From: Microbispora sp. H11081
GTDB lineage: Bacteria > Actinomycetota > Actinomycetes > Streptosporangiales > Streptosporangiaceae
Direction of reading: 5' to 3'
Assembly: GCF_012999535.1 (NCBI RefSeq)
Contig: NZ_JABBWV010000001.1
Coordinates: 124,001-188,000 of the forward strand
Length of the DNA: 64,000 bases
The translations under genes and the position numbers were made by a program. Shown here in pieces: positions 2,187-44,132 of the stretch. Below the pieces are notes generated by a model. That model did no database searches, was not told the DNA's origin, and worked only from the letters and a program-made list of their open reading frames with translations. Every line of letters begins with the position of its first letter. Position 1 is the stretch's first letter.

Positions 2187-2202
2187 GCATCTCCCGAAAT
2201 GC
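2187..2202 (-). promoter_or_regulatory. 16-bp cluster promoter element, site 1 (hydroxylase 1)
   Basis: Read towards the leftward hydroxylase gene this is GCATTTCGGGAGATGC, followed after 20 nt by the -10-like hexamer GACGCT (2161-2166), with the start codon at 2115. A degenerate rightward relative (2232-2247, GCATTCCGGGATAAGA, with GAGAAT 20 nt on) may serve the facing methyltransferase operon. An 8-bp inverted repeat, TATCCCGG...CCGGGATA, also lies between the two genes. Confidence 0.75.
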
Positions 2203-2383
2203 CCTGCCATATCCCGGGACGTGCGGGCATGGCATTCCGGGATAAGACAGCGCGCCGGGCACCCGGAGAGAATCCGAGTGCGGTTCCCCGTCCCGGAGAC
2301 GGTCAAGTAGCGGACGAGGCGCCCCCGCGACGCCGGTAGCGCCCGGCGTCCGCGCGGCGGGGCCCTGGCGGTTGGGAGTTGCG

Positions 2384-3139
2384 GTGACCACAGTCGACAG
2401 CCGAACACGGGACGACAACGTCTACGGAGAGGACGTCAGCGAGATCTACGACCTCCTCTACAAGCGGCGCGGCAAGGACTACGCGATGGAGGCCGAGGTG
2501 GTGACCGGCCTCATCCGCGACCGCGCCCCGCACGCGGCGACGCTGCTCGACGTGGCCTGCGGCACCGGAGAGCACCTCACGTCGCTGCGGACGATGTTCG
2601 AGCACGTCGAGGGGGTCGAGCTGTCCGACGCCATGCGGGAGCGGGCCATGGCCAAGCTGCCCGGCGTCGCCGTCCACCCGGGGGACATCCGCGACTTCGA
2701 CCTCGGCCGCACCTTCGACGCCGTCTGCAGCCTGTACGGCACGGTCGGCTACATGGCCGGCACGGAGGAACTCGACGCCGCGATCGGGTCCATGGCCAGG
2801 CACGTCGCTCAGGGCGGCGTCCTCATCGTCGAACCGTGGTACTTCAGGGACGGCTTCGTCGACGGCCACATCGGGCACGACGTCGTCCGCGACGAGCACC
2901 GGGTCGTGGCGCGGGTCGCGCGGTCCGTACGCGTCGGCGACACGGTCGAGGTGCGGGCCCACTACCTCGTGGGCGACGGCGAGGGGGTGCGCCACTTCGA
3001 GCACGTCCAGGTGATGAGCCTGTTCTCCCGGGAGGAGTACGCCGCCGCGTTCCGGCGGGCCGGCCTCGACGTGACCTGCCTGGAGGAGACGGGCGACCTG
3101 CTCGCCGGGCGCTCGCTGTTCCTCGGCGTGCGCCGGTGA
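2384..3139 (+). CDS. SAM-dependent sugar N-methyltransferase (DesVI/TylM1-like)
   Basis: A 251-aa class I methyltransferase. It opens with VYGEDVSEIYDLLYKRRGKDY and has the SAM-binding motif LLDVACGTGEHL (around residues 55-66), then SLYGTVGYM and LIVEPWYF, the layout seen in DesVI/TylM1-type NDP-aminosugar N,N-dimethyltransferases. The GTG at 2384 is chosen because GGGAG lies 5 nt before it. The next two genes are a PLP aminotransferase and a sugar C-methyltransferase, so the likely substrate is an NDP-4-amino sugar made by the neighbour. Whether one or two methyl groups are added cannot be told. Confidence 0.82.
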   Translation: MTTVDSRTRDDNVYGEDVSEIYDLLYKRRGKDYAMEAEVVTGLIRDRAPHAATLLDVACGTGEHLTSLRTMFEHVEGVELSDAMRERAMAKLPGVAVHPGDIRDFDLGRTFDAVCSLYGTVGYMAGTEELDAAIGSMARHVAQGGVLIVEPWYFRDGFVDGHIGHDVVRDEHRVVARVARSVRVGDTVEVRAHYLVGDGEGVRHFEHVQVMSLFSREEYAAAFRRAGLDVTCLEETGDLLAGRSLFLGVRR

Positions 3140-3155
3140 GGGGGAGGGGCGGGCG

Positions 3156-4286
3156 GTGATCCCCCTGTTCCGGTCCACGGTGGCGCCTGGCGCCGCGGAA
3201 CTGGTCGCCGACGTGGTGCACAGCGGCCGGTTCGGCCACGGGCCGCGGGTGGAGCAGTTCGAGCGCGCGCTCGCGGAGCGCGTGGGCAACCCCCACGTGG
3301 CCGCGTTGAACAACGGCACGTCGGCGCTCCACCTGGCGCTGCACCTGGCGCTGAGATCGGCCGGCGGGCAGGAGCAGGACGGGCCGCCGGGCGAGGTGCT
3401 GACCACCCCGTTCACCTTCGAGGCCACCAACTGGAGCATCCTCGCCAACGGGCTGCGCATCACCTGGGTGGACGTCGACCCGGCCACGCTCACCATCGAC
3501 CTCGACGACCTGGCGAAGAAGATCTCGCCGGCCACCCGGGCCGTCATGGTGGTGCACTGGGGCGGCTGCCCGGTGGACCTCGACCGGCTGGCGCGCATCC
3601 TGGACGACGCCGAGGCGGCGTACGGCGTCCGCCCCGCCGTGATCGAGGACTGCGCCCAGGCGTGGGGGGCCCTGTGCCACGGCCGGCCGCTGGGCAACCA
3701 CGGCAACTACTGCGCCTACAGCTTCCACGCGACCAAGCACCTGAGCTGCGGCACCGGGGGCATGCTCGCCCTGCCAGACGAGCGGTCGCTGGAGCGCGCC
3801 AGGCGCCTGCGCTTCTTCGGCATCGACCGTGACGCCGACCGGGTGAACGCCGACTACGACGTGCCCGAGTGGGGCTACAACTTCTACCTGAACGAGATAG
3901 GCGCGGCCATCGGCCTGGCGAACCTCGTCGACGTGGACGCCCGCGTCGAGCGGCACCGGCGCAACGCCGCCTTCTACGACCGCGAACTCGCGGGCGTGCC
4001 GGGCCTGGAGTTGACGGAGCGCACTCCGGGGCTGGAGTCGTCGTTCTGGCTCTACCCGGTCAAGGTGGAGAACCGCGCCGCCTTCATGCGGAAGATGACG
4101 GCCGCCGGGATCACCGTGAGCGTGGTGTGCCGCCGCAACGACGCGCACGGCTGCGTCACCGCGGCGCGCACGGCCCTGCCGGGGCTCGACTCGGTGGACG
4201 AGCGCGTGGTCAACATCCCCGTCGGCTGGTGGCTTTCCGAGGAGGACCGCGCGCACATCGTCGCGACGGTGAGGTCGGGCTGGTGA
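3156..4286 (+). CDS. DegT/DnrJ/EryC1-family NDP-ketosugar aminotransferase
   Basis: A 376-aa PLP-dependent aminotransferase. The hallmark Schiff-base lysine is K194 in YSFHATKHLSCG; the substrate-side motif NNGTSALHLALH and the aspartate-containing EDCAQAWGA are also present, so it is a true aminotransferase, unlike the His-containing dehydratase at 34.1 kb. The GTG start at 3156 has a strong GGAGGGG site. It follows the N-methyltransferase by 16 nt. Given the sugar dehydrogenase and decarboxylase elsewhere in the cluster, the likely reaction is transamination of an NDP-4-keto-pentose, as proposed for calicheamicin and maduropeptin sugars. The stop codon is embedded in a perfect 9-bp inverted repeat. 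Confidence 0.88.
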   Translation: MIPLFRSTVAPGAAELVADVVHSGRFGHGPRVEQFERALAERVGNPHVAALNNGTSALHLALHLALRSAGGQEQDGPPGEVLTTPFTFEATNWSILANGLRITWVDVDPATLTIDLDDLAKKISPATRAVMVVHWGGCPVDLDRLARILDDAEAAYGVRPAVIEDCAQAWGALCHGRPLGNHGNYCAYSFHATKHLSCGTGGMLALPDERSLERARRLRFFGIDRDADRVNADYDVPEWGYNFYLNEIGAAIGLANLVDVDARVERHRRNAAFYDRELAGVPGLELTERTPGLESSFWLYPVKVENRAAFMRKMTAAGITVSVVCRRNDAHGCVTAARTALPGLDSVDERVVNIPVGWWLSEEDRAHIVATVRSGW

Positions 4287-4309
4287 ATTCCGCGCCATTG
4301 GCGGAATTC
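4285..4309. repeat. Perfect 9-bp inverted repeat between sugar genes
   Basis: GAATTCCGC, a 7-nt loop, then GCGGAATTC, overlapping the aminotransferase stop codon and lying 50 nt before the C-methyltransferase start. It could be an operator or a processing hairpin; there is no T-run after it. Confidence 0.6.
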
Positions 4310-4360
4310 ACCGCAACCGCCGATAAGAAATGCCGCGGACGGCGGTGTTAACGTCCTGTC

Positions 4361-5581: not shown

Positions 5582-5597
5582 GCGCTTTCCGGAATAA

Positions 5598-5613
5598 GCA
5601 CGGGGGGAGATGC
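5598..5613 (+). promoter_or_regulatory. 16-bp cluster promoter element, site 2 (acyltransferase/P450 operon)
   Basis: GCACGGGGGGAGATGC, then 20 nt, then the -10-like AATGAT (5634-5639); the acyltransferase starts at 5727. The GGAG-ATG inside the element can be mistaken for a ribosome site plus start codon. Confidence 0.75.
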
Positions 5614-5726
5614 GGCGGCGCGCGGCGGATGCGAATGATGGAGTCGCCGGAAAGCGACATCCCCAGATTGCCCAGCGTTTCTCCATTTGCCGGCAGGGGC
5701 AGTCCGAGTCGAAAGGAACACCCACC

Positions 5727-6926: not shown

Positions 6927-6969
6927 CTCTTCCTTGTCCAACGCACCAAAGAACGACCGGGAGACATCC

Positions 6970-10487: not shown

Positions 10488-11807
10488 TCAGGCGCGGTCG
10501 GAGCCGGTGGACGCGGCGCCCACGGGCACGCCCTGCTGCACCGGGTCCGCGGTGGCCACGGGCCGCCTGGTGTCCTTCTTGAACCAGACGTTCCACAGCT
10601 TCATCACCGGGCGCTCCAGCGCGTAGTAGCTGACGGTGGACAGGATCACGCTCACCGCGAGCACGAAGGCCGTCAGCTCCCAGAAGCCGACGGTGCCCCG
10701 GAACTGGGTGGCGTCCAGCGGGTCCACCCCGAAGATGTTGCCGTTCTTCAGGTAGAACTCCTGGACCAGCACGTGCCACAGGTAGATGCCGTACGAGATG
10801 CGCCCGAGGTAGCGCATCACCGGGTTGGCCAGCACCGCCTCCATGAACCGCGACTTCGCCTCGGGCAGCGTCAGCGGCACGATGAACAGCACGCCGAAGA
10901 CGAGCACGAGGGTGTGGCCGACCAGCTCCTGGATCAGGGCGGGCCAGTCGCCCATGCCCGGGGTGCCGAAGGGCTGCGGGGCGTACGCCAGGTAGACGAC
11001 GAGCGCGGCGAGCCAGAACATGTTCGGCCGCCGGATCGCCAGCCGGTAGAGCCCGGGCACCCGGCCGGTCACCTCGGAGTAGGCGTGCAGGATGCCGAGC
11101 ACCATGCCGCAGGCGAAGGCGGTCATGTAGTAGAACGGCCAGAACCAGAACTCGTACGGACCCGTGAACGAGGGCAGGTTCGTGTAGATGATCCACGCGT
11201 AGCCGCCGGCCAGCACGAGGGCGGGCGTGATCATCATGAGCCGCATCCGCCTGGCCGGGTCGGGGCTGCGGCGCGCGAGCCGGTTGGAGGCGAGCGCGAG
11301 CAGCGGGATGGCCAGGTAGAAGGTGAGCTCGGTCGGGACGGTCCAGGTGTGCAGCAGACCGGTGAGCGGCTGGCCCTCCTGCCAGAAGAAGTGGATCGCC
11401 AGGAACGGCCGCAGCACGTCGCGGATGCCGTTGATCCCGTTGAGGTTGATGAACAGCAGCGCGACGGCCAGCATCAGCCAGTAGGCGGGCAGGATGCGGA
11501 ACGCGCGCCGGGTGAGGAACGCCGGCACGTTGGGCTTGCCGCTGCCGGCCAGGATCGCGCGGGCGAACGGCCGGTAGAGGAACAGGCCCGACAGCAGGAA
11601 GAAGGGCGGCAGACAGACCGCGAGGCCGTCCGCCAGGTATCCCCAGATGCCGTTGCCGGGCTGGTCCATGAAACTGGTGGCGCCCGCCAGCCACGCGGCG
11701 TGGAAGACGAGCACTCCCAATGCGAGGACTCCGCGTACACCCTCTAGCCGCGGAATTCGTTCACCGCTGTCGGCTCTCGCGCCGCGCGTGCTGGATGTGG
11801 CCACCAT
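10488..11807 (-). CDS. Integral-membrane acyltransferase (acyltransferase-3/OafA family) 2
   Basis: A 439-aa polytopic acyltransferase-3 protein. After a polar N-terminus come IPRLEGVRGVLALGVLVFHA (helix 1 with the conserved histidine) and PFFLLSGLFLYRPF, then about ten hydrophobic segments and a charged C-terminal tail after YYALERPVMKLW. The ATG at 11807 is chosen for its AGGAG at 8 nt; the upstream frame extension crosses the promoter element. It differs clearly in sequence from the first acyltransferase, so the two probably act on different acceptors or donors. It could O-acylate the aminosugar or an aromatic appendage; no specificity can be read. It lies downstream of the FAD monooxygenase and has its own element copy. 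Confidence 0.85.
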   Translation of the reverse strand: MVATSSTRGARADSGERIPRLEGVRGVLALGVLVFHAAWLAGATSFMDQPGNGIWGYLADGLAVCLPPFFLLSGLFLYRPFARAILAGSGKPNVPAFLTRRAFRILPAYWLMLAVALLFINLNGINGIRDVLRPFLAIHFFWQEGQPLTGLLHTWTVPTELTFYLAIPLLALASNRLARRSPDPARRMRLMMITPALVLAGGYAWIIYTNLPSFTGPYEFWFWPFYYMTAFACGMVLGILHAYSEVTGRVPGLYRLAIRRPNMFWLAALVVYLAYAPQPFGTPGMGDWPALIQELVGHTLVLVFGVLFIVPLTLPEAKSRFMEAVLANPVMRYLGRISYGIYLWHVLVQEFYLKNGNIFGVDPLDATQFRGTVGFWELTAFVLAVSVILSTVSYYALERPVMKLWNVWFKKDTRRPVATADPVQQGVPVGAASTGSDRA

Positions 11808-11883
11808 TTGCCTGCTCCTATCAGGAGTGAATCTGTTCGCAATCGTTTGGCGTTGCCAATCGACCCCCCTTGCGTCGTAATCA

Positions 11884-13290
11884 TCAGCTTCGGCCGGAAA
11901 TGCGCACATCTCCTGAAATGCTGGATTCGGTGCGGCTCTCCGCCCACCGCGGCGACGCGGCGGGCCGCGGGCGGCCGCCCTTCAGCAGGGCCCGCAGGAT
12001 CATCCCGGGGCTCATGAGCGCCTGCGGGGGGTCGACGAGCCCCGCCACGCGCATGAACGTCCTGGTCGCCAGGCCGTCTCTGGACATGGCGTTCTGCACC
12101 CTGGCCATGTAGGCGTTCATGAACCGCACCATGAGCGGGCGCTCGCCCTCGACCTCGGGGAAGCTCAGGTCGCCGCCCGCCGAGACGTTCCAGGGCACGT
12201 CGATGACGGCGGAGATGTCGCGGAAGAAGTCGAGCGGCCTGGGCTCCGTCCCCTTGCGCAGGTGCGTGCGGAGCGTGAGCGACTCGAGGGCGGCCACCGT
12301 CATGCCCTGGCCGTACACGGGGTTGAAGCTGCACGCGGCGTCGCCCATGACGAGCAGGCCGTCGGGGAAGCGGGTGAGCCGCTCGTAGTGCCTGCGGACG
12401 CTGGCCGGGTAGCGGAAGGAGACGGGGTCGTCCAGCGGTTCGGCGTCCTTGATGACGTCGTAGATGTCCGGGACCGGCAGGGACTTGACGAAGTCCATGT
12501 AGCCCTCGGGGTCGGCGGGGGCGCTGTCGCCCAGCACGCCGGTGAGGGACACCACGCACCTGCCGTCCTCGATCCTGGAGAAGAAGGCGCCGCGCGGGTG
12601 CGAGGGCGTGGAGACGGGGTTGATGGACAGGTCGCCGTTGAGGATGCTCTCGTCCCGCAGCCGGAAGTGCCGGGTGGTGTAGGTCAGGTTGATCTTGACC
12701 TTCTCCTCGGCCGGCCGCTCGTAGCCGAACTCCTCCAGCCACACCGGGGTCCGCGACCCGCGGCCTGTGGTGTCCACCACGAGGTCGGCCTCGATGGTCA
12801 CCTCTTCGCCGTCGTGGGGGCGCACCCGTGCCCCGGTCACCCTGCCGCGGTCGGGGGTGGCGACGAGCCCGGCGATGTCGTGCTCCTCCAGGAACGTGAC
12901 GTTGGGGAGCGCGGCCACCCGGGCCCTCACGTGGCTCTCCAGCACGGGCCGGGCGGCGGAGACGCAGATCAGGCCGGTGCGGGCCGGCTGGAGCCGGGCG
13001 CCGTTGAAGAACCAGCGCAGCTCGCCGAGGTCGCCGGTGGGCACGCCGGCGGCCACCGCCCCCTCGGTGAACCCGGGGAACAGCTCCTCGAGGATCTGCT
13101 GGCCCCGGGCCAGCAGTCCGTGCACGTGCCGGCCCTGCGGGACGCCGCGGCGCGCGGTCGTCACCCCGCTAAGCCGGTCCCTGTCGACGACCAGAACCTC
13201 GGCGTAGCCATCCGCGAGCACCCGCGCCGCGAGCAGACCCGCCATGCTGCCGCCGAGCACCACCGCGCGGTTTCCCACGAGACTGCTCAT
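11884..13290 (-). CDS. FAD-dependent monooxygenase, LasC/squalene-epoxidase-like
   Basis: A 468-aa class A flavoprotein. It has the FAD dinucleotide motif VVLGGSMAGLLAARVL, the characteristic RRGVPQGRHVHGLLARGQ, and the second FAD motif GDAACSFNPVYGQGMTVAALE; the middle holds DLVVDTTGRGSRTP. It lacks the WxWxIP motif of flavin halogenases. This sequence type includes polyether epoxidases. The immediately upstream gene, ending 219 nt before the ATG, is an epoxide hydrolase, which suggests (inference) that this enzyme makes the epoxide that the hydrolase opens in the enediyne core. The ATG at 13290 has GGAGGT 6 nt before it. Confidence 0.8.
   Translation of the reverse strand: MSSLVGNRAVVLGGSMAGLLAARVLADGYAEVLVVDRDRLSGVTTARRGVPQGRHVHGLLARGQQILEELFPGFTEGAVAAGVPTGDLGELRWFFNGARLQPARTGLICVSAARPVLESHVRARVAALPNVTFLEEHDIAGLVATPDRGRVTGARVRPHDGEEVTIEADLVVDTTGRGSRTPVWLEEFGYERPAEEKVKINLTYTTRHFRLRDESILNGDLSINPVSTPSHPRGAFFSRIEDGRCVVSLTGVLGDSAPADPEGYMDFVKSLPVPDIYDVIKDAEPLDDPVSFRYPASVRRHYERLTRFPDGLLVMGDAACSFNPVYGQGMTVAALESLTLRTHLRKGTEPRPLDFFRDISAVIDVPWNVSAGGDLSFPEVEGERPLMVRFMNAYMARVQNAMSRDGLATRTFMRVAGLVDPPQALMSPGMILRALLKGGRPRPAASPRWAESRTESSISGDVRISGRS
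11906..11921 (-). promoter_or_regulatory. 16-bp cluster promoter element, site 3 (acyltransferase 2)
   Basis: Reads GCATTTCAGGAGATGT towards the leftward acyltransferase, with GATGAT 20 nt on (11880-11885). It is the only copy inside a coding region: it overlaps the last codons of the FAD monooxygenase, and the -10 overlaps that gene's stop codon. Confidence 0.65.
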
Positions 13291-13382
13291 CGGGTTACCT
13301 CCCTGTGTACCGGATCGCGTAGAAAAGTGCGGCGATCCGCCGTTTCGCACCTCGTCATCGTCAGACGGCCTCGGGAAGCGGC

Positions 13383-13398
13383 GCATCTTCCGCAGTGC
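13383..13398 (-). promoter_or_regulatory. 16-bp cluster promoter element, site 4 (FAD monooxygenase)
   Basis: Reads GCACTGCGGAAGATGC towards the monooxygenase, then 20 nt, then GACGAT (13357-13362); the start codon is at 13290. It lies just past the epoxide hydrolase terminator, so the two genes are separate transcription units. Confidence 0.75.
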
Positions 13399-13509: not shown

Positions 13510-14682
13510 TCAGGCGTTCACCGGCGCGGGCCGCAGCGAGCGCGCGAACGCCCGCACGTCGCCGACCAGCAGGCCGGGCTGCTCCAGCGCCGCGAAGTGC
13601 CCGCCGCGGTCGAACTCCGTCCAGTGCGTGATCGTCGGCAGCGCCTGCTCGGCGAAGCGGCGGATCGGGCGGGTGGCGTCCTTGGGGAAGACCGCGACCC
13701 CGACCGGCATGGCGAGCGGCCACGGCCCGCCCCACGTCTGAACGAAGGCCGCGTCGCCGTGGCTGGACTCGTAGTAGAGCTGCGCGGACGATCCCGCGGT
13801 GGCGGTGAACCAGTAGATGGACACGTTGGTCAGCAGGGCGTCGCGGTCGACCGCGTCCTCGGGGGCGTTCTCGGAGTCGGTCCACTCCTTGAACTTCTCC
13901 GCGATCCAGGCGAGCTGGCCGACCGGGGAGTCGGTGAGCCCGTAGGCGAGGGTCTGCGGACGCGTGGACTGGATCTTCTGCCAGCCGAGCCCGTCCTGCT
14001 GGAACCGGCCGCCGTGCTCCAGGCGGGTCAGCTCGTCCGCGTCCAGGTTCAGCGTCGCCGGGTCGCCGGGCGGGAACGTCACCAGCATGTTGATGTGCAC
14101 GCCGGCCACGTGCTCGGGGTCGGCGAGGCCGAGCTGCAGCGAGATCACCTTGCCCCAGTCGCCGCCCTGCGCGATGTACCGGTCGTACCCGAGGCGGTTC
14201 ATCAGCTCCGCCCACGCCCGCGCGACCCGCGGCACGTCCCAGCCGATCTGGCCGGTGGGGCCGGAGAAGCCGTAGCCGGGGATGGACGGGATCACGACGT
14301 GGAAGGCGTCGGCCGGGTCGCCCCCGTGGGCGGCCGGGTCGGTCAGCGGGCCGATGACGTCGAGGAACTCGGCGACAGAGCCGGGCCAGCCGTGCGTGAG
14401 GATGAGCGGAGTGGCGTGCGGCTCGGGCGACCGCACGTGGATGAAGTGCACATTCGCGCCGTCGATCTCGGTCACGAACTGGGGGTACTGGTTGAGCCGC
14501 CGCTCGGCCGCGCGCCAGTCGTAGCTCGTCCGCCAGTACTCGGCGAGGTCCTTGAGGTACGCCAGGGGAACGCCGCGGTCCCAGCCGACGCCCGGCAGTT
14601 CGTCCGGCCAGCGGGTGGCGGCGAGCCGCCGGTTCAGATCGTCCAGGTCGGCTTGCGGAATTTCGACACGGAATGAACGCAT
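13510..14682 (-). CDS. Epoxide hydrolase (SgcF-like)
   Basis: A 390-aa alpha/beta-hydrolase with the EHN N-terminal domain ([20 protein letters not shown]), the oxyanion-hole motif [12 protein letters not shown] and the nucleophile region [14 protein letters not shown] (aspartate in GGDWG); the C-terminal histidine lies in [13 protein letters not shown]. This matches the microsomal-type epoxide hydrolases SgcF and NcsF2, which open the epoxide of the nine-membered enediyne core to a vicinal diol. The ATG at 14682 follows AGGTG by about 5 nt. It sits as its own transcription unit between the 16-bp element and a strong terminator, upstream of the FAD monooxygenase. Confidence 0.9.
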
Positions 14683-14809
14683 GTGTGCACCTGATTCGGT
14701 AGAAGCTGCGCTGCCTGATGCGATGCGATCTCGGCCGCCTGCGGAGTCGCTCGGGCCGCGTGAGGAGCTGTCCTCACCCCGCCATCGTCGGCCGGGGGCC
14801 CGCGGCGCC

Positions 14810-14825
14810 GCATCTCCCGCAGTGC
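14810..14825 (-). promoter_or_regulatory. 16-bp cluster promoter element, site 5 (epoxide hydrolase)
   Basis: Reads GCACTGCGGGAGATGC, then 20 nt, then GACGAT (14784-14789), 128 nt upstream of the epoxide hydrolase start. Confidence 0.75.
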
Positions 14826-16209: not shown

Positions 16210-16225
16210 GCATTTTCGGAGATGC
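16210..16225 (+). promoter_or_regulatory. 16-bp cluster promoter element, site 6 (ligase/SgcG-like operon)
   Basis: GCATTTTCGGAGATGC, 20 nt, then CACGAT (16246-16251), facing the PaaK-like ligase that starts at 16355. Confidence 0.75.
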
Positions 16226-16354
16226 GTCGCGGCGCACATCGCGATCACGATGTCACGGTAATAAGGGATTTATCGACCAGTTTCGTGGTGCCGCGCCGGC
16301 GCCTGTCGCGCCGTCACCGGAGCCGGTTGTCGACGAGGTCGTAGGGGAGGCTTG

Positions 16355-17686
16355 ATGGCATCGCTCGGACCGGCCCGCCCGGAGACCGCCGAGTACTGGA
16401 ACCGCAAGACGGAGACCATGCCGCGCCGGGAACTGGAGCAGTGGCAGTGGCGCAAGCTGTCGAAGGCCCTGGACTACGCCAGGAGCAACTCACCCTTCTG
16501 GCGGGAGCGGCTGCCCGAGCGGATCGGCTCCCTTGAGGAGTACTTCGCGACGGTCCCGTTGCTGCACAAGTCGGAGCTGATCGCCGCGGAGGAGGCGGCC
16601 CCGCCGTACGGCGCCTGGCCGTCGACCGACCCCGTGCTCGGCATCCGGCACCACCAGACCAGCGGAACGAGCGGGAACCCGCCCGTCCGCACGTTCGACA
16701 CCCAACGCGACTGGACCTGGGGTGTGGACCTGTGGTGCACCGTGCTGCACGGCATGGGGGTGCGCCCCGGCCACCGGGGGATGGTCGCCTTCGGCTACGG
16801 CCTGTTCATCGGTTTCTGGGGCATGCACTACGGGCTCGAACGGATGGGCTGCCGCGTCGCGCCCTCCGGCGGGCTCGACTCCAAGGCGCGCGTCCGGCTG
16901 CTGGTGGACCAGCAGATCGAGGTGCTCGGCTGCACGCCCAGCTACGCCATGCGGCTGATCGAGACGGCCCGCGAGATGGGCGTCGACCTCGCCAGGGACG
17001 CCAACGTGCGCATCATCATGGCGGGCGGCGAGCCGCGGCCCGAGTCGACCACGCGGACGATATCCGAGGCGTTCGGCGCCCGGGTGTTCAACGCCGCGGG
17101 CACCACCGAGTTCGGCACCGTGTCGATGTTCGAGTGCCCCTGGCAGAACGGCGGCTGCCACATCATCGAGTCCGGGCTCATCGAGGAGGTGCTGGACCCC
17201 GAGACCCTGCGACCCGTGGGGTACGGCGAGGAGGGCGTCCGGGTGACGACCGGCCTCGGCCGCGAGGGCGTGCAGCTGTTCCGCCACTGGACCGACGACC
17301 TGGTGGTGAAGCGGCCCTGGCACGAGTGCGGCTGCGGCCGCACCTGGGACTGGTTCGATGGCGGCATCCTCGGGCGGCGCGACGACATGCGGAAGATCCG
17401 CGGCGTGTCCGTGACGCCGGTGATGATCGAGGACGTGCTGCGGGGCTTCCCCGAGGTGAGCGAGCACCAGGTGATCCTGCGTACCGTCCGCGGGCTCGAC
17501 ACGATCGTCGTGCGGGTGGAGTCGCACGACGTGGCGGGACTGGACGCGCCGGGCCTGTGCGAGCGCATCAGCAGGGCGGTGAAAGAGGAGATAGGCATCC
17601 GGCCCGAGGTCGAGACGGCCGAGCCGGGCAGCCTTCCCCGATTCGAACTGAAAGCGGCGAGGTTCCATGATGAACGCTCCAGGTGA
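16355..17686 (+). CDS. PaaK/coenzyme F390 synthetase-like adenylate-forming ligase 1
   Basis: A 443-aa adenylate-forming enzyme of the phenylacetate-CoA ligase family. The phosphate-binding loop is QTSGTSGNPP; the adenine region includes AAGTTEFGTVSMFECP, and a CGCG pair lies in WHECGCGRTWDWFDG near the hinge sequence GRRDDMRKIRGVSVTP. This family includes SgcD5 of C-1027, originally called a coenzyme F390 synthetase and assigned to benzoxazolinate activation. The ATG at 16355 follows GGGGAGG by 4 nt, with an in-frame TTG just before. It begins a four-gene operon with an SgcG-like enzyme and a second ligase, so an anthranilate- or benzoxazolinate-type acid is the probable substrate (inference). 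Confidence 0.85.
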   Translation: MASLGPARPETAEYWNRKTETMPRRELEQWQWRKLSKALDYARSNSPFWRERLPERIGSLEEYFATVPLLHKSELIAAEEAAPPYGAWPSTDPVLGIRHHQTSGTSGNPPVRTFDTQRDWTWGVDLWCTVLHGMGVRPGHRGMVAFGYGLFIGFWGMHYGLERMGCRVAPSGGLDSKARVRLLVDQQIEVLGCTPSYAMRLIETAREMGVDLARDANVRIIMAGGEPRPESTTRTISEAFGARVFNAAGTTEFGTVSMFECPWQNGGCHIIESGLIEEVLDPETLRPVGYGEEGVRVTTGLGREGVQLFRHWTDDLVVKRPWHECGCGRTWDWFDGGILGRRDDMRKIRGVSVTPVMIEDVLRGFPEVSEHQVILRTVRGLDTIVVRVESHDVAGLDAPGLCERISRAVKEEIGIRPEVETAEPGSLPRFELKAARFHDERSR

Positions 17687-22082: not shown

Positions 22083-22169
22083 GACTGGCGTGCCCTCCAG
22101 CTCAGCGGTGCCAGGCGGACGGCCTGGCGTTCGGCCGTTTCCCAGGCTCGCACGCCGGTCGCGGGCCCC

Positions 22170-22185
22170 GCGTCTCCCAGCGTGC
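22170..22185 (-). promoter_or_regulatory. 16-bp cluster promoter element, site 7 (FAD-linked oxidase)
   Basis: Reads GCACGCTGGGAGACGC towards the oxidase; the -10-like hexamer 20 nt on is GAGCCT (22144-22149), the weakest of the set. Confidence 0.65.
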
Positions 22186-22223: not shown

Positions 22224-22239
22224 GCACTCTGGGAGATGT
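22224..22239 (+). promoter_or_regulatory. 16-bp cluster promoter element, site 8 (methyltransferase operon)
   Basis: GCACTCTGGGAGATGT, 19 nt, GACGAT (22259-22264), facing the methyltransferase that starts at 22343. Together with site 7 it makes a back-to-back promoter pair. Confidence 0.75.
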
Positions 22240-22342
22240 GACCGCGCCGCCCGGCACGGACGATGGCGTCGACGCGTTGTGTCCGGCAGTCGTCAGAACC
22301 CGTCCGCCCAGATGAGCGCGGCACGATGGGAGCGGCATCTCC

Positions 22343-26577: not shown

Positions 26578-27900
26578 CTACCGCCGGTGCTGGCCGGTCA
26601 GCTTCTCCAGGTCGGGCACGATGTCCGAAGGGCTCGGCTTGGCCAGCCACTCCTCGTGCACCGCGTCCGCGCCCGCCCGGATCGACGGGTCCTCCAGCGC
26701 CTTGACGATCAGGTCGCGGACCTCCTCCACCGACTGCTTCTGGTGGTTGAGGCGCAGCCCCGCCCCGCGTCCCGTCACGTACGCGGTGGCGATCGGCGAG
26801 AGGATGTGCCGCTCGGGGATGGTGCTGCCGCCGTCCTCGTGGAACTCCAGCCGCTGGCTCTCGTCGGTGTCGGTGATGATCTGCGGGAGGTTCGCCGCCA
26901 CCGAGGACCAGAAGGTGCCGCTCGACCCGTGGTTGATGCTCACCGCGCAGCTCGGCAGCAACTGGGTCAGCGGGACGTAGTCGACCGTGCGCACGTTCGG
27001 GGGCAGCGGGGGCAGCCCGACGAGCTGGTCGGCGTTCAGCGTCGCGACCAGCTCGACGTCCAGGCCGGCGACGGCCTCCAGGATCTTGGGGGTCCGCCAC
27101 TCGCCCTTGTGGTAGGTCCGGGTCGACAGGCCCACGGACAGGGCGATACGGGGCCGCTCCGGCTTGCCGTACAGCCACTCGGGCACGACGCCGCCGCCGT
27201 TGTAGGGGATCCAGCGGACGGGCAGCGAGGACAGGTCGCGGGACAGGCGCATCTCGGGCGGCAGCGGGTCGAGGGTCCACTGCCCGAGCAGGAGCTCCTC
27301 GTCGACCTCGACGTCGTAGCGCTCGGCGAACGGGCGCACCGCCTCGGCGAGCGGGTTGAGCGCGTTGCCGGAGCCGGTGGCGCCGCCGGCGTGCTCGGCG
27401 AACCTCTCGGTCGCCCAGCCGCTGTAGTCGGGGCCCATCAGCATCCGGGCGTGTGCCGCGCCGCAGGCGCGGGCCGCGACGGCTCCGCCGGGGAACCAGG
27501 GGTCCCACAGGACCAGGTCGGGCCGCCAGCTCCGGGCGAAGGCGACCAGGGCGTCGTTGTCGGTGCTGGGCTCCGGGGGGAGGTGGAACTTCGCCGCGGA
27601 CAGCAGGAACTGGAAGAACACGTCCCAGCTGTCGCGGTCGGCGGGGTCGATCTTCACGGCGTCGGCGAGCCGGTCCATCTCGCCCGGATTCGGAGCGAGG
27701 TCGGGCCTCGCCCACCCCTGCGCGGTCGCCTCGGGAGTGCCGCAGACGACCGCGCTGAGCCCGGCCGCCACGATGTCGGCCTCGGCGCCCGGAGGGCAGG
27801 CGATGCGGACCTCGTGTCCCGCTGTCTGCAGGGCGTGCGCGTACGGAATGATCGGGTAGAGGTGGCACTTCTGCGGCCAGACCGTGAGCATTACCTTCAT
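26578..27900 (-). CDS. GT1-family glycosyltransferase
   Basis: A 440-aa GT-B enzyme of the antibiotic macrolide/enediyne type. The N-terminus MKVMLTVWPQKCHLYPIIP holds the acceptor-side histidine; the middle has DLVLWDPWFPGG; the donor-binding C-terminal domain has VDYVPLTQLLPSCAVSINHG followed by SSGTFWSSVAANLPQI, the usual HGG-type loop with SS. It should attach the cluster's aminosugar to the enediyne core, the role SgcA6 has in C-1027. Only one glycosyltransferase is in the window, implying one sugar unless others lie outside. The ATG at 27900 follows AGGAG by 6 nt. The likely promoter is about 190 nt upstream. Confidence 0.9.
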   Translation of the reverse strand: MKVMLTVWPQKCHLYPIIPYAHALQTAGHEVRIACPPGAEADIVAAGLSAVVCGTPEATAQGWARPDLAPNPGEMDRLADAVKIDPADRDSWDVFFQFLLSAAKFHLPPEPSTDNDALVAFARSWRPDLVLWDPWFPGGAVAARACGAAHARMLMGPDYSGWATERFAEHAGGATGSGNALNPLAEAVRPFAERYDVEVDEELLLGQWTLDPLPPEMRLSRDLSSLPVRWIPYNGGGVVPEWLYGKPERPRIALSVGLSTRTYHKGEWRTPKILEAVAGLDVELVATLNADQLVGLPPLPPNVRTVDYVPLTQLLPSCAVSINHGSSGTFWSSVAANLPQIITDTDESQRLEFHEDGGSTIPERHILSPIATAYVTGRGAGLRLNHQKQSVEEVRDLIVKALEDPSIRAGADAVHEEWLAKPSPSDIVPDLEKLTGQHRR

Positions 27901-28120
27901 CGAGGCTCCTGAATCTGTGACGGACGTGGACCGCGGCGGGGGAGAGCCGGGGCGTCCCACCCGGCCGCGAGAGTTCAGGGCCGCCCGGCGGGCACGGCGG
28001 CGCAGGGCGGGCGATGGCGGCGCAGGTGCTCGGCCGGGGCACGCGCGCGAGCAGCGTGCCTGCCGCGGTCGTGGCCGGGACCTCGCATGCCGCCAGCGTC
28101 ACATCGCCGGGTGACCAGGC

Positions 28121-28136
28121 GCATCTTCCCTCGTGC
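28121..28136 (-). promoter_or_regulatory. 16-bp cluster promoter element, site 9 (glycosyltransferase operon)
   Basis: Reads GCACGAGGGAAGATGC, then 20 nt, then GACGCT (28095-28100), pointing at the glycosyltransferase. The leader would be unusually long (about 190 nt); no convincing leader peptide is seen in it. Confidence 0.7.
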
Positions 28137-28342
28137 GGCATGGCCGCGGGCACGGCTTCGGCACTCACGAGGAGCGCCGGGTTTCCTTGGCAAATCTCCT
28201 GACCGATTTCAATTACTCTCCTGACAGAAACGTGTCAAATGCCGCGCAACATGCTGACAGGAATTCGTCTGGATTGCCGGCCGTGAATGGATCACATTAG
28301 GTCCTGTAAGCACCACTTGCCGCCGAAGAAAGGATGCGGAAA
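28137..28342 (+). promoter_or_regulatory. Upstream region of the apoprotein gene
   Basis: About 200 nt of relatively AT-rich DNA with no gene. A possible promoter is TTGCCG (about 28275) with TTAGGT 17 nt on. It has no copy of the 16-bp element facing the apoprotein, which suggests separate control of the apoprotein. The exact start of transcription cannot be fixed. Confidence 0.4.
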
Positions 28343-28873
28343 ATGAGGAACAAGACCGGTGTTCTGGCCAAGCTCGGTGTCGCCGCCGCGATGGTGTGCG
28401 GTCTGACCGTCGCCTCGCAGACGGCCGCGGCGGCCGCGCCCACGTTCTCCGTCGCCACGTCCTCCCCGTCGCCGACGTCGTCCGTGACCCCGACGTCGTC
28501 CGTGACCCCGACGTCCTCCCCGTCGCCCACCTCCTCCGCGGCGCCGACGTTCACTGTGTCGCCGGCGAGCGGCCTGCACCACGGCGACACAGTGACGGTC
28601 AAGGTGACCGGAGCGGGCGCGAACGAGACGTTCGGCATCGCGCAGTGCTCCAACATCGGCGTGACCTTCGGGTGCGACGGGACCACCGCCACCACGTTCA
28701 CCACCGACGCGAACGGTGCGGCCACGTTCACGATGCCCGTGCACCAGACCTTCGACGCCGTGACGTACCTCGGCCTGTCGCTGGGCAAGGTCGACTGCGG
28801 CGCCACGAGTTGCTACATCGGCGCGGGCAACCAGAACCTGGCGCTCGGGGACGTGCCGCTGTCCTTCGGCTGA
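28343..28873 (+). CDS. Secreted enediyne apoprotein (neocarzinostatin/CagA family) with Ser/Thr/Pro linker
   Basis: A 176-aa preprotein. Residues 1 to about 31 are a Sec signal peptide (LGVAAAMVCGLTVASQTAAA). Residues 66-176 are a complete neocarzinostatin-family immunoglobulin-like domain beginning APTFTVSPASGL; its four cysteines (C102, C111, C152, C157) match the two conserved disulfides, and VDCGATSCYIG and LALGDVPLSF are typical. Between them is a low-complexity linker of about 30 residues (TSSVTP and SPSPTSS repeats) preceded by a second copy of the mature N-terminus, APTFSV. The protein should bind and stabilise the chromophore outside the cell. The ATG at 28343 is preferred to that at 28334 because AAAGGA lies 8 nt before it. 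Confidence 0.93.
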   Translation: MRNKTGVLAKLGVAAAMVCGLTVASQTAAAAAPTFSVATSSPSPTSSVTPTSSVTPTSSPSPTSSAAPTFTVSPASGLHHGDTVTVKVTGAGANETFGIAQCSNIGVTFGCDGTTATTFTTDANGAATFTMPVHQTFDAVTYLGLSLGKVDCGATSCYIGAGNQNLALGDVPLSFG

Positions 28874-32404: not shown

Positions 32405-33751
32405 TCACCGCCCGATGCCCTGGTAGGCGTAACCGAGGCGGCGCAGTTCCGCGATCTTGTCTTTCGGGTAGTAGGCCCGGCCGTCCAGCACCAGGCAGCC
32501 CGGCGCCACCGGCAGGTCCGCGAAGTCGATGTCCCTGAAGGGCCGGTGCAGGGCCATGACCGCCACGCAGTCGGCGTCCCGCACGGCCTCCCGCAGGTCG
32601 GCGCAGGGAGCGACGCCGAACAACGCCTCGGCCTGCACCGGGTCCACCAGCGGGTCGTGGACCCGGACCGTGGCCCCCGCCTTGACCAGCGTCGTCACGA
32701 AGGGCTCCACCGGCGTCGCCCGCAGGTCGCCCGTGTCGTTCTTGAACGCCGCGCCGAGCACCGCCACCGTGGCCGTGGCGGGATCCTTGCCGCGCCGCAC
32801 CAGCGTGTCGACGACAAGCTGCGCCGCGTACTCCGGCATGCCCGTGTTGACCCTCCGGCCGGCCGGCGCGGTGTGGATCTCCAGGCCGCGCCCGCGCGCC
32901 GAGTGCCAGACCATCCACGGATCCTTGACCAGGCACGACCCGCCCACGCCCACGCTCGGCAGCAGGATGTTGACGTTCCCCGTGCCCTTGGGGACGGTGT
33001 TGGCCGCCGCGATCACGTCGAGCACGTCCACGTCGTACAGCCCGCAGAACTTCGCCAGCTCGTTGGCGAGCGCGATGTTGAGGTCGATCCACCAGTTGTC
33101 CGCCAGCTTCACGATCTCGGCGGCCTCCGGAGAGTCCATCGGGACGATCGTGACGTCGAGCACCCGCCGCCAGAACTCCGTACCGGCGAGGGTGCTGTCG
33201 GCGTTCAGCCCGCCCACGGCGATCGGGAGGGAGCGCAGCTCGCGCAGCGCCGTGCCCTCGGCGAACCGCTCGGGGGTGAAGGCCAGGCCGAAGTCCTCAC
33301 CCGCGGTGAGCCCGCCGCGCTCCAGCAGCGGCCGGGCCAGGTCCCGGGTGGTGCCGGGCGGCACCGTGCTCTTGAGCAGCACGAGCTGGCCCTGGCGCAG
33401 GTGGTCGCCGAGCCGCAGGCACGCCTCGCGCAGCTGGTCGTCCCGCAGCGAGCCGTCCGGGTGGACGGGCGTGCTGACGGCGACGAGCACCACGTCGGCG
33501 TCCCGTACGCCGGTGTAGTCGGCGGTCACCCGGAGGCGTCCGGACGCCACCGCGTCCGCGACGAGCTCGGGCAGGCCGTGCTCCTGGTAGCGGCAGTGCC
33601 CGCGGGCCAGCTCGTCGAGCAGGACGGTGTCGATGTCCACGCCCGTGACCGTGCATCCGCGGTCGGCCAGCAGCGCCGCCAGGCACGAGCCGACGTAGCC
33701 GAGTCCGACGACCGCCACTTTCAAGTCCCGCTGGTCGGGTAGGAAACGCAT
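32405..33751 (-). CDS. Nucleotide-sugar 6-dehydrogenase (UDP-glucose dehydrogenase family, CalS8-like)
   Basis: A 448-aa enzyme with the N-terminal NAD motif VAVVGLGYVGSCLAALLA, the central LADNWWIDLNIALANELAKF and the catalytic cysteine C273 in GVGGSCLVKDPW. It oxidises C6 of an NDP-hexose to the acid in two NAD-dependent steps. CalS8 of calicheamicin does this on the way to an NDP-pentose; the decarboxylase-like SDR at 8.5 kb would follow. The PW after KD resembles the UDP-ManNAc dehydrogenase branch, so the natural substrate needs testing. The ATG at 33751 has AGGAG at 7 nt. The 16-bp element lies 132 nt upstream. Confidence 0.87.
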   Translation of the reverse strand: MRFLPDQRDLKVAVVGLGYVGSCLAALLADRGCTVTGVDIDTVLLDELARGHCRYQEHGLPELVADAVASGRLRVTADYTGVRDADVVLVAVSTPVHPDGSLRDDQLREACLRLGDHLRQGQLVLLKSTVPPGTTRDLARPLLERGGLTAGEDFGLAFTPERFAEGTALRELRSLPIAVGGLNADSTLAGTEFWRRVLDVTIVPMDSPEAAEIVKLADNWWIDLNIALANELAKFCGLYDVDVLDVIAAANTVPKGTGNVNILLPSVGVGGSCLVKDPWMVWHSARGRGLEIHTAPAGRRVNTGMPEYAAQLVVDTLVRRGKDPATATVAVLGAAFKNDTGDLRATPVEPFVTTLVKAGATVRVHDPLVDPVQAEALFGVAPCADLREAVRDADCVAVMALHRPFRDIDFADLPVAPGCLVLDGRAYYPKDKIAELRRLGYAYQGIGR

Positions 33752-33882
33752 GAAACGCTCCTGATTCGAAATAGGAATATGTTTCCGGTGTTGCCGGGCG
33801 TGCCCTCGCCGAAATTTCCGGCGTGCCGCCGGATCATGACGCGGTTCTCTGTTCGCATCGTCATTCCCGGCCCTCGTCCGCC

Positions 33883-33898
33883 GCATCTCCCGGCGTGC
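33883..33898 (-). promoter_or_regulatory. 16-bp cluster promoter element, site 10 (sugar dehydrogenase)
   Basis: Reads GCACGCCGGGAGATGC, 20 nt, GACGAT (33857-33862). The 349-nt gap 33752-34100 holds this site and site 11 back to back, and no gene. Confidence 0.8.
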
Positions 33899-33951: not shown

Positions 33952-33967
33952 GCAATCCAGGAGATGC
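33952..33967 (+). promoter_or_regulatory. 16-bp cluster promoter element, site 11 (3-dehydratase operon)
   Basis: GCAATCCAGGAGATGC, 19 nt, GATGCT (33987-33992), 134 nt before the start of the dehydratase gene. Confidence 0.75.
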
Positions 33968-34100
33968 GGGGCGATCGGCGCCGCCGGATGCTGGGACGGT
34001 GCGTCCGTGGCTTCCCGTGGCTTCGTGGTCCCACCGCGGCTTCCCCGCGGGCCGGCCGGAAGACGACCGGCACCGTCCACCCGAGCGATAAGGACCGGAG

Positions 34101-35405
34101 ATGAACGATCACAAGGCGCTGATCCTGGACGAGGTCCGCAAGTACCACCAGGACGTCCAGACCGGTGGGGAATTCGTGCCGGGGGTGACCGAGATCTGGC
34201 CGACCGGCGCCGTGCACGACGTCGAGGACCGCGTGGCCCTGGTCGAGGCGGCGCTGGACCTGCGGGTGGCCGCCGGTCAGCGCGCGCGCAAGTTCGAGTC
34301 GGTGTTCGCCCGCAAGATGAAGCGGCGCAAGGCGTTCCTCACCACCTCGGGGTCATCCGCGAACCTGCTGGCGGTCTCCGCGCTGACCTCGCAGCGTCTG
34401 CAGGACATGCGGCTGCGGCCGGGCGACGAGGTGATCACGGTCGCCGCGGCCTTCCCCACGACGGTCAACCCCATCCTGCAGAACGGCCTGGTGCCGGTCT
34501 TCGTCGACGTCGAGCTGGGCACGTACAACCCGACGGTCGAGGCGGTCGAGCGGGCGATCGGCCCCAAGACCAAGGCGATCATGATCGCGCACACTGTGGG
34601 CAACCCGTTCGACGTCGTCGACATGGCGAGGCTCGCGACCGAGCACGACCTGTTCCTCATCGAGGACAACTGCGACGCCGTCGGCGCCCTGTACGACGGC
34701 GAGCCCACCGGCACGTTCGGCGATCTCGCGACCGTGAGCTTCTACCCGGCCCACCACATGACGATGGGCGAGGGCGGCTGCGTCCTCACCTCGAACCTGG
34801 TGCTGGCCAGGATCGTCGAGTCGCTGCGCGACTGGGGCCGCGACTGCTGGTGCGAGCCCGGCGAGAGCAACACCTGCCTCAAGCGGTTCGACTACCAGAT
34901 GGGCACGCTCCCGAAGGGCTACGACCACAAGTACATCTACTCGCACGTCGGCTACAACCTGAAGGCGACGGAGCTGCAGGCGGCGCTCGGCCTCAGCCAG
35001 CTCGAGAAGCTCGACGACTTCTGCGCGACGCGGCGGCGCAACTGGCGGCGGCTGCGCGAAGGGCTGGACGGCGTGCCGCACCTGCTGCTCCCCGAGGCGA
35101 CCCCGCGCAGCGACCCCAGCTGGTACGGATTCGTCATCACCGTCGACCCGCAGGCGCCGTTCGGCGCGGGCGAGCTCGTGGACTTCCTGGAGAACCGCAA
35201 GATCGGCACGCGCCGGCTGTTCGCGGGCAACCTGATCAGGCACCCGGCCTACGCCGACCAGCCGTACCGCGTCGTGGGCGAGCTGACCAACACCGACATC
35301 ATCACCACCCAGACCTTCCACGTCGGGGTGTACCCGGGCCTGACCGACGAGATGATCGACTACGTCGTCTCGTCCATCACCGAATTCGTGCGGGCACGTG
35401 GATGA
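34101..35405 (+). CDS. NDP-4-ketosugar 3-dehydratase (RfbH/ColD/SpnQ/E1-like, PMP and [2Fe-2S])
   Basis: A 434-aa member of the aminotransferase fold in which the Schiff-base lysine is replaced by histidine (H219 in [14 protein letters not shown]). It also has the E1-type iron-sulfur ligand pattern C191-x57-C249-x-C251-x7-C259 (EDNCDAV ... [12 protein letters not shown]). Both features define the PMP-dependent 3-dehydratases that remove the C3 hydroxyl of an NDP-4-ketosugar. These need an electron-transfer reductase; none is in the window. The ATG at 34101 has AAGGA at 6 nt. The expected product is a 3-deoxysugar, which is hard to reconcile with a madurosamine-like 3-C-methyl-3-hydroxy pattern and points to a different sugar. 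First gene of a three-gene operon. Confidence 0.92.
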
Positions 35406-38341: not shown

Positions 38342-38758
38342 TCAGGCCGCGGCGGCGGTCGGGGTGTTCTGGTAGGCCGTGATCAGCCACGTGCCGTCCT
38401 GCCGGGCGAGCACCCAGGTGGCCCGGATGGCCCGCTCCGGCGCGACCTCGGTCTCGCCGGGGGCCAGGACACCGCCCTGCGTGACCAGCACGGCCGCGTC
38501 GGAGCCGATGAACTTGACCGAAATCGGCTCGCCGGTCACCCGGGTTCCCTTGTACGGCCCTGCGTAGGCCGCCTTGAAGAATTCGCGGATCGCCTCCCGC
38601 CCGCTGACGAAGACGCCACCGGGCAGGATCATGGTGGCGTCCTCGGTGCAGGCCGCGGCGAAGGCGTCGGCGTCGTTGCCTGCCCAAGCGGCGACGATGC
38701 GCCCGGGCACCTCGCGGAGGGCCGCGATCTCGTCGTTGATCGTCGAAGTAGCGCTCAT
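38342..38758 (-). CDS. SnoaL-like/NTF2-fold protein (SgcJ/EcaC family)
   Basis: A 138-aa single-domain alpha+beta cone protein: DEIAALREVPGRIVAAWAGN, FAAACTEDATMILPGGVFVS, REAIREFFKAAYAGPYKGTR and TWVLARQDGTWLITAYQ. It belongs to the family named after SgcJ of C-1027; homologues occur in nearly all enediyne clusters. SgcJ-type proteins are thought to help the core PKS give the right heptaene product rather than to catalyse a known step. The ATG at 38758 has AAGGA at 9 nt. It is a single-gene unit with its own 16-bp element 68 nt upstream. Confidence 0.88.
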   Translation of the reverse strand: MSATSTINDEIAALREVPGRIVAAWAGNDADAFAAACTEDATMILPGGVFVSGREAIREFFKAAYAGPYKGTRVTGEPISVKFIGSDAAVLVTQGGVLAPGETEVAPERAIRATWVLARQDGTWLITAYQNTPTAAAA

Positions 38759-38825
38759 GCTCGTTGTTCCTTCGCTGGACGGCTGGAACTCACCTCCCCA
38801 TAGTCAGGACCGGGCCGCTGACCAC

Positions 38826-38841
38826 GCATCTCTGCCCGTGC
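38826..38841 (-). promoter_or_regulatory. 16-bp cluster promoter element, site 12 (SgcJ-like gene)
   Basis: Reads GCACGGGCAGAGATGC, 20 nt, GACTAT (38800-38805), 68 nt upstream of the SgcJ-like start. It is 30 nt beyond the stop of the ADIC synthase gene. Confidence 0.7.
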
Positions 38842-38871
38842 GCTACCACGGGGGGCGGCCGGCGGCGGCCC

Positions 38872-43490: not shown

Positions 43491-43506
43491 ACCGCACCCC
43501 CTCCGC

Positions 43507-43550
43507 AGAGACGGTTCCGCGGCCCAACGGCGTGCCGCGGGACCGTCTCT
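43507..43550 (+). terminator. Terminator of hydroxylase 2
   Basis: 16-bp stem with one mismatch (AGAGACGGTTCCGCGG against CCGCGGGACCGTCTCT), 17 nt after the stop. Confidence 0.85.
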
Positions 43551-43690
43551 TACGTGTGCCAGGGGGCGCGTACCGGCGGAGAGAACCCGGGTGCCCCCCG
43601 GAAACGACCCGGACGGCCCGGACATGACGGCGGGCGAGGACCCCGGGCATGCGGAAGGCACAAGGAACGTACAAGGAGAGCACGCGGAAA

Positions 43691-43720
43691 GGCCGGAGGC
43701 GTGGGACCACGCCTCCGGCC
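43691..43720 (-). terminator. Terminator of the carrier protein gene
   Basis: Perfect 14-bp stem GGCCGGAGGCGTGG / CCACGCCTCCGGCC with a 2-nt loop. Confidence 0.85.
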
Positions 43721-43737
43721 ACGACGTGCCGGACCGG

Positions 43738-44013
43738 TCACGCGGCGGGCGAGACCGCCGCCTTCCCCGCGACCATGCGGACCAGCGCGTCGAGGTTCGG
43801 GTCCTCCTCGAAGACGTCGCCGACGTCGACGGAGATGCCGAGCTCGTCCTCGATCCGGGATACGAGGCGGACCGCGGCGATCGACTCCCCCTCCAGGTCG
43901 AAGAAGGTCGCGTCCTCACTGCCGTCCGGCACGTCGAGCACCTGCTTCCAGATCTCGGCGACCTTGGCCTCGATGACCGGGAGAACGAGCTCGCCGGGGT
44001 GATTGCCACTCAT
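43738..44013 (-). CDS. Free-standing peptidyl carrier protein (SgcC2-like)
   Basis: A 91-aa carrier protein. The phosphopantetheine serine is S44 in FFDLEGESIAAVRLV, where the usual GGDS or GGHS is EGES; helices follow with VSRIEDELGISVDVGDVFEE. It should carry the amino acid activated by the free adenylation enzyme while it is hydroxylated and then passed to the condensation enzyme. The ATG at 44013 has GGAGGA at 7-8 nt. It is a single-gene unit with its own 16-bp element. Confidence 0.9.
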   Translation of the reverse strand: MSGNHPGELVLPVIEAKVAEIWKQVLDVPDGSEDATFFDLEGESIAAVRLVSRIEDELGISVDVGDVFEEDPNLDALVRMVAGKAAVSPAA

Positions 44014-44116
44014 ACGGTGTCCTCCCCAAACGTCCACGATGGCGCGCATGGCGTCCTGGCTGCCTGCTGACTGTCTGCTGGCTGCCCTCACAGCATCGCA
44101 ACCGCCGAGGGCCGCG

Positions 44117-44132
44117 GCACCTCCCAGAGTGC
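44117..44132 (-). promoter_or_regulatory. 16-bp cluster promoter element, site 13 (carrier protein)
   Basis: Reads GCACTCTGGGAGGTGC, 19 nt, GATGCT (44092-44097), 104 nt before the carrier protein start and 10 nt past the SARP stop. Confidence 0.72.

Follow-up and report, generated by a model that had tools for sequence, protein, structure and literature searches.

SgcR2, SgcR3, TnmR7 and UcmR7 are known genetically as positive regulators of the production of enediynes, a class of antitumour antibiotics, and SgcR2, UcmR7 and TnmR7 are described as positive regulators of the AraC family (PMC9464397; PMC8210685). UcmR7 is reported to be 34% identical to SgcR2 (PMC8210685), deletion of TnmR7 abolished tiancimycin, and the DNA target of TnmR7 was untestable because the protein was insoluble (PMC9464397). 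A second related system is the class II marbox of MarA, RamA, SoxS and Rob, where a monomeric double helix-turn-helix protein binds an asymmetric two-part site in forward orientation that overlaps the -35, the RamA site on micF being placed at about -41 and written CACT-7X-AAA (PMC8811837; PMC12052159). Here we report that a 64,000-nt stretch of the Microbispora sp. H11081 genome (contig NZ_JABBWV010000001.1, hereafter C1, positions C1:124001-188000; "the window"), which judging from its genes is a nine-membered enediyne cluster marked by a chromoprotein, carries 13 copies of a two-block promoter element. We conclude that this element is very probably where a pathway-specific activator binds, an AraC-family protein of the SgcR2/TnmR7 group that would work by class II activation at about 15 promoters.

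The element had been described in an earlier note as 13 copies of a 16-bp string, each followed after 19-20 nt by a GACGAT-like hexamer, and all 13 strings were found where they had been placed. The exact form GCAYNNNGGGAGATGC occurs four times in the window, at 2187, 5598, 14810 and 33883, the remaining nine copies differing from it in at least one position; elsewhere in the genome it occurs once, at C5:88812 on contig 5, without a -10 behind it. Two further copies flank the window on the forward strand: one, at C1:121234, precedes an aromatic amino-acid lyase gene and the other, at C1:193861, a DUF5987/GMC-oxidoreductase operon, which makes 15 sites in total. The spacing holds across this set (20 nt in 12/15 sites, 19 nt in 3/15), the -10 hexamer having been assigned by sequence alone. 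When aligned, the sites share GCA at the upstream end of the box and a GAGATGC-like sequence at the downstream end. Six box positions (G1, C2, A3, A11, G12 and G15) and two hexamer positions (A in second and T in sixth place) are invariant. GCA...TGC is the only mirrored part; by base counts the 5' half beyond GCA is variable and the 3' half fixed. The 13 window elements precede tailoring, sugar, acyl and carrier-protein genes, and the divergent pairs at 22.2 and 33.9 kb each have one box per direction, as had been observed. Distances from site to gene start had been given as mostly 68-143 nt and span 67-220 nt with our gene starts, which are predicted except for the annotated ones in C-1027. 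The box is best explained as lying at about -48 to -33, replacing a -35 hexamer.

Recurrence on this scale exceeds chance. In 100 order-1 Markov windows the mean was 0.18 hits of at least 18 bits and 0.03 of at least 20 bits (maximum 1), compared with 14 and 13 hits in the real window, where the fourteenth is the antisense of the site at 16210. With the two-block matrix none of the 15 sites falls below 24.6 bits; the best non-site in 584 kb of the same genome (the window and 26 stretches) reaches 22.5 bits and the next 18.7, and 14/15 sites rank above every non-site in 124 kb under leave-one-out scoring, the exception being 22170. The matrix gave no hits of at least 24 bits in 300 kb of other own-genome stretches or in the 140 kb around a paralogue of the LuxR-type (LAL) regulator of the window. 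A covariance model using sequence alone, trained on the 15 sites and run over the 7.38-Mb genome, with 150 of 22,948 first-look candidates scored, placed those sites as its top 15 (E <= 0.003), followed by a hit at E 0.056; because the model was trained on these sites, the informative part is the score gap below them. Hits at equal density in unrelated parts of the genome, which the earlier note had named as a point that would speak against the element, were not seen in this search, the 15 cluster sites standing clear of all others. Hit counts vary with the bit and E-value thresholds stated.

The candidate binder is encoded by an AraC-family gene at C1:191214-191993 on the reverse strand, 3.2 kb past the window edge and beside the enediyne polyketide synthase (PKS) cassette (HTH_18, E 9.8e-22). 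The protein is 49.4% identical to SgcR2 of the C-1027 cluster over 93% of the query, and in the alignment its recognition helices equal those of SgcR2 apart from S/T and V/I exchanges; a structural model of an orthologue (L156) predicts two helix-turn-helix units of the MarA fold and a C-terminal beta domain. It is the sole regulator recognised in all 14/14 motif-bearing enediyne clusters of our first set, and this co-occurrence, like the sites, their geometry and their specificity, was established computationally. In its geometry the element matches a class II MarA/RamA site, being asymmetric, in one orientation and centred near -40. The two systems differ in the downstream half of the site (GAGATGC versus AAA), in the regulon, which is one gene cluster and not a stress regulon, and in the C-terminal beta domain of the AraC protein. 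AdpA of Streptomyces differs from the regulator proposed here in acting globally and in its consensus, which is loose and of another form.

We propose that the N-terminal double helix-turn-helix of the AraC protein would bind the asymmetric 16-mer through contacts to GCA (upstream) and GAGATGC (downstream) about one helical turn apart. Bound to a one-orientation box in place of the -35, the protein could touch both sigma region 4 and the C-terminal domain of the alpha subunit and so bring RNA polymerase to a poor, GAYGMT-like -10, a class II activation as by MarA, RamA and SoxS. DNA binding, activation and a transcription start about 7 nt after the hexamer are predicted, and tailoring, sugar, acyl and carrier-protein genes would be switched on together from about 15 promoters, among them both divergent pairs, in which each direction has its own box; the same protein-operator pair would recur across enediyne clusters. 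Binding over the -35 can also repress, and the box might serve as a repressor operator for the AraC protein or another factor, but the relatives TnmR7 and SgcR2 are reported as positive (PMC9464397; PMC8210685), and the fixed orientation and spacing to the -10 favour polymerase contact. We give repression next to no credence.

The earlier note had proposed a dedicated activator, and that part is probably right, the sequence evidence supporting it: the site is of activator type, in the -35 position and one per promoter, and the cluster-wide regulon is absent elsewhere in the genome. Its suggested binders, the LuxR-type and SARP proteins, did not fare as well. Both the LAL (50430..53267, forward strand; AAA_16 and GerE domains) and the SARP/AfsR-like regulator (44142..47267, reverse strand; BTAD, NB-ARC and TPR domains) are coded within the cluster, and the LAL adjoins the DUF1702 pair in many motif-bearing clusters. 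The LAL was at first favoured because its only full-length close paralogue, 57% identical, lies on contig 5, which also has the exact 16-mer outside the window. It was rejected because the 140-kb neighbourhood of that paralogue holds 0 two-block sites, the 16-mer there lacks a -10, and the LAL is absent from 6/14 motif-bearing clusters in the stretches read, with which a genome search agrees. The SARP was rejected likewise, with no match on contig 5 and absence from 8/14 clusters as read. The asymmetric, one-directional box is unlike the palindrome of a LuxR dimer. SARP operators are tandem heptamers adjoining the -10, whereas the element is a single conserved block ending 19-20 nt before it, with no conserved tandem repeat by inspection. 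Binding by either protein is, in our judgement, very unlikely. Separately, a leuA-like (HMGL) gene followed by a LAL gene occurs as the same pair twice, at 48641-53267 in the window and at C5:121879-126511 (L029:2879-7511), where no enediyne core genes were recognised.

Two conserved blocks at nearly constant spacing could also indicate the promoter of a dedicated alternative sigma factor with the 16-mer as its -35, and an ECF-type sigma gene is present at C1:193341-193904. That gene was discarded as the recogniser since it occurs in only 6/14 clusters; moreover, a sigma -35 hexamer is shorter than a 16-bp block and sits closer to the -10 than 19 or 20 nt, and the most constant positions of the -10 are A2 and T6, which is also the pattern of ordinary sigma-70 promoters. 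A sigma-factor promoter of this kind is scarcely credible to us.

The AraC-operator reading can be followed into other clusters of the home family. With the R1 model at E <= 0.01, for which E-values are rough, hits were found in 73/341 home-family genomes, 63 of the 73 with a strong DUF1702 marker. Thirteen further clusters were fetched, 11 for their R1 hits and two without R1 hits, so that most were selected by model hits. At 19 bits or more, hits numbered 15 (G075), 20 (G308), 19 (G216), 20 (G219), 9 (G305), 11 (G282), 11 (G236), 12 (G211), 16 (G199), 9 (G142) and 13 (G012), and in the two without R1 hits 8 (G208) and 3 (G330). A weight-matrix scan of other enediyne clusters, as the earlier note had recommended, gave 110 hits of at least 24 bits in 1.06 Mb when the own-genome matrix was applied to 12 of these clusters (the near-identical G075 excluded); 100 were intergenic, and 99 of these were upstream of a gene and oriented to its start. 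Controls were nearly empty, 20 column-shuffled matrices averaging 0.1 hits and a column-reversed matrix giving 1. In tandem gaps the 16-mer pointed forward 34 times and backward once, and convergent gaps held none. At 100 sites outside the home genome the spacing was 20 nt in 67 and 19 nt in 33, under a spacing prior that favoured these two lengths.

Among DUF1702-positive genomes, the motif was present in 58/74 with the AraC protein at E<1e-50 and in 5/31 without. We discarded the interpretation of this table as joint loss of regulator and sites; it mostly reflects divergence, because five of the six AraC-"negative" genomes inspected (6/31) do have AraC. These five (G120, G135, G320, G095 and G334) have a 33-38% identical AraC protein and variant sites, which in G334 are few and weak; the sixth, G248, showed neither AraC nor sites in the 11.5 kb inspected.

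The C-1027 (lidamycin) cluster, on plasmid NZ_CP013739.1, shows the element beside SgcR2. In 135 kb the own-genome matrix found 13 sites of at least 20 bits, 11 of them within the sgc cluster; 50 shuffled matrices gave 0.16 on average and never more than 1. A twelfth sgc site, at 57696 (18.6 bits), precedes an operon with the tyrosine aminomutase gene, and a further weak one, at 57766, is 213 nt off a start. The 12 sgc sites lie 64-167 nt ahead of annotated starts, including those of the chromoprotein gene, whose box runs into the end of the gene next to it, and of the DUF1702-to-PKS operon. The "tailoring regulon" of the earlier note accordingly describes the Microbispora cluster, and does not describe C-1027 and some others, where the DUF1702-PKS core operon also has a site. 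SgcR2 resembles our candidate in family and in the element that its cluster carries, present ahead of 12 annotated starts and weak at one of these; it differs in that the C-1027 cluster also has SgcR1 (StrR-type) and SgcR3. No StrR-type gene was recognised among the scanned window genes, for which no orthologue search was made. An SgcR2 binding site was not found in the searchable literature. In the published gel shifts, SgcR3 bound the sgcR1R2 fragment only, and when the published primers were mapped, the four fully mapping structural fragments held the element and both regulator fragments were without it. This fits, though not fully, a cascade from SgcR3 to SgcR1/R2 to the structural genes, with the last step putatively via the element; the imperfect fits are the weak copies at sgcC1 and the sgcA1 fragment, whose single box faces the gene on the opposite strand.

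Variant forms extend beyond this type. Clusters G120, G135, G320 and G095 have separated core genes, 54-57% PKS identity and a variant box (GAGACGC, GAAGA forms), and their AraC proteins, 34-38% identical, retain the key helix residues; from gene order we take these clusters to be of ten-membered type. They gave 7-10 candidates each after re-training, and 2-5 hits of at least 20 bits each with the original matrix. After re-training, 33/34 intergenic hits were upstream of a gene, and orientation alone is independent evidence there because the matrix was re-trained on the group's own intergenic hits. TnmR7 and UcmR7, from ten-membered anthraquinone-fused systems, are likewise AraC-family activators; in the ten-membered-like variant clusters the operator is often GAGACGC or GAAGA and less uniform, the tnm and ucm sequences themselves being outside the comparison. 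In four ten-membered-like clusters a special variant box GCAC....GAAGAAGAC with a -10 like GCATGATT stands before the enediyne PKS gene (L186:9412, L191:15039, L195:15769 and L199:12106).

The element is also present in Streptomyces verrucosisporus, S. alkaliphilus, Micromonospora radicis and Actinokineospora fastidiosa. The R2 model at E <= 0.03 gave at least 3 hits in 25/39 named genomes with enediyne-type helices and in 1/10 of a sister group; it is strict, finding 3 sites in M. radicis where the matrix finds 10. The sister group of AraC proteins (L102-L126, L177) is mostly from Streptomyces and has altered helices, VSK[YF]HFLR and GYSSTGSFTRRF, with no close enediyne core genes nearby. Further relatives of the AraC protein (L094-L098, E about 1e-57 to 1e-59) come from genomes of about 3 Mb in a distant group of the phylum.

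The recurrence of this tag and protein in several actinobacterial families suggests a common on-switch for enediynes. We lean towards the view that one SgcR2/TnmR7 AraC-operator pair governs essentially the whole enediyne class, nine- and ten-membered, and that box and protein have stayed together in Streptomyces, in Micromonospora and throughout the home family (Nonomuraea, Actinomadura, Streptosporangium and kin), with LAL, SARP and StrR-type regulators swapped freely; an Actinokineospora has the box as well.

Several observations weigh against the AraC-operator reading or its breadth. AraC presence tracks enediyne clusters as such, so co-occurrence alone cannot tell AraC from other core genes, and the compared genomes are related, which makes the counts non-independent. 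Ten of the 73 genomes with at least one hit lack a strong DUF1702 marker, where the E-value cut-off nominally allows 2-3, and in G330 a stretch of 60 kb holds 3 sites, the adjoining 20 kb another 2. On the C-1027 plasmid, two hits lie outside the cluster (96414, 129980), and the sgcA1 fragment holds only a box for a gene on the other strand; as sgcA1 falls in the sgcR3 mutant, another factor such as SgcR1 must act there. Outside the home family, 14/39 named genomes with enediyne-type helices have 0-2 R2 hits, so presence is uneven or partly missed by R2. In A. fastidiosa, the motif-bearing cluster on C9 (L205-L208, L225-L228) showed no AraC at 1e-15 in 160 kb. This absence of an in-cluster AraC near the sites would favour a chromosomal, non-cluster regulator common to actinobacteria as binder in all these clusters. 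Set against that are the clear separation of the 15 cluster sites in their own genome and the home-family genomes that lack the AraC protein at E<1e-50, among which 0/264 have at least 3 hits; we hold such a regulator to be highly improbable. An AraC relative with the usual recognition helices is coded on another A. fastidiosa contig (L143), where no core genes lie closer to it than 10 kb.

Mechanistically the proposed system belongs to a known kind; what appears new is the operator, how far the regulon extends and that it is conserved over the enediyne class. The earlier note knew of no published site of this form, and we too found no report of the box, nor of an operator of an AraC-type enediyne regulator, in the open-access literature (works cited: PMC9464397, PMC2657911, PMC8210685, PMC8811837, PMC12052159). 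With a defined box, the DNA target of the AraC proteins can be put to the test on short DNA using whichever orthologue is soluble; the box also offers a way to draw cluster borders, predict activator-responsive promoters and activate silent clusters. If the pair is class-wide, a single activator could switch on many enediyne clusters that are silent, with the box marking which genes are members. In natural-product regulation, regulators are often replaced, and an operator recognisable across several families and, seemingly, two structural subclasses is unusual.

Each window element comprises the 16-mer box, a spacer (20 nt unless stated) and the -10-like hexamer. On the reverse strand, 2161..2202 precedes an acyl-CoA-dehydrogenase-like gene (868-2115; 37.6 bits), 11880..11921 an acyltransferase gene (10488-11714; 37.5 bits; the element reaches into the 3' end of the gene upstream), 13357..13398 a FAD oxidoreductase gene (11884-13290; 41.1 bits), 14784..14825 an epoxide hydrolase gene (13510-14682; 38.6 bits), 28095..28136 a glycosyltransferase gene (26578-27900; 34.8 bits), 38800..38841 a SnoaL-like gene (38342-38758; 31.5 bits) and 44092..44132, with a 19-nt spacer, a carrier-protein gene (43738-44013; 27.4 bits). 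On the forward strand, 5598..5639 stands before an acyltransferase gene (end 6926) and then a P450 (33.7 bits), and 16210..16251 before an AMP-binding (CoA-ligase-like) gene (16355-17686) and the next genes to 20034 (37.0 bits). One divergent pair joins the weakest element, 22144..22185 (reverse; -10 CGAGCCTG; FAD-linked oxidase gene 20700-22082; 24.6 bits; leave-one-out rank 16), to 22224..22264 (forward; 19-nt spacer; methyltransferase gene 22343-23227; 36.4 bits); the other joins 33857..33898 (reverse; UDP-sugar dehydrogenase gene 32405-33751; 39.5 bits) to 33952..33992 (forward; 19-nt spacer; DegT aminotransferase gene 34101-35405; 33.3 bits).

At threshold, no element was found in the window before the core DUF1702-PKS operon or the LAL, SARP and chromoprotein genes. 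A GGGAGATGC string at 47278, at the SARP start, lacks the upstream GCA half and is no element. The chromoprotein (neocarzinostatin family) is encoded at 28334..28873 on the forward strand (PF00960, E 8.9e-19; NF040680 over cut-off). Other cluster genes in the window are the DUF1702 pair, the enediyne PKS, the epoxide hydrolase, a chorismate-using synthase, and sugar and carrier-protein genes. The DUF1702 pair and core genes occupy 53805..58916 on the forward strand, followed by the PKS gene, which runs past the window edge. The enediyne-type DUF1702 protein also matches 49 plasmid records, 47 from Streptomyces, one from Nonomuraea and one from Sinorhizobium.

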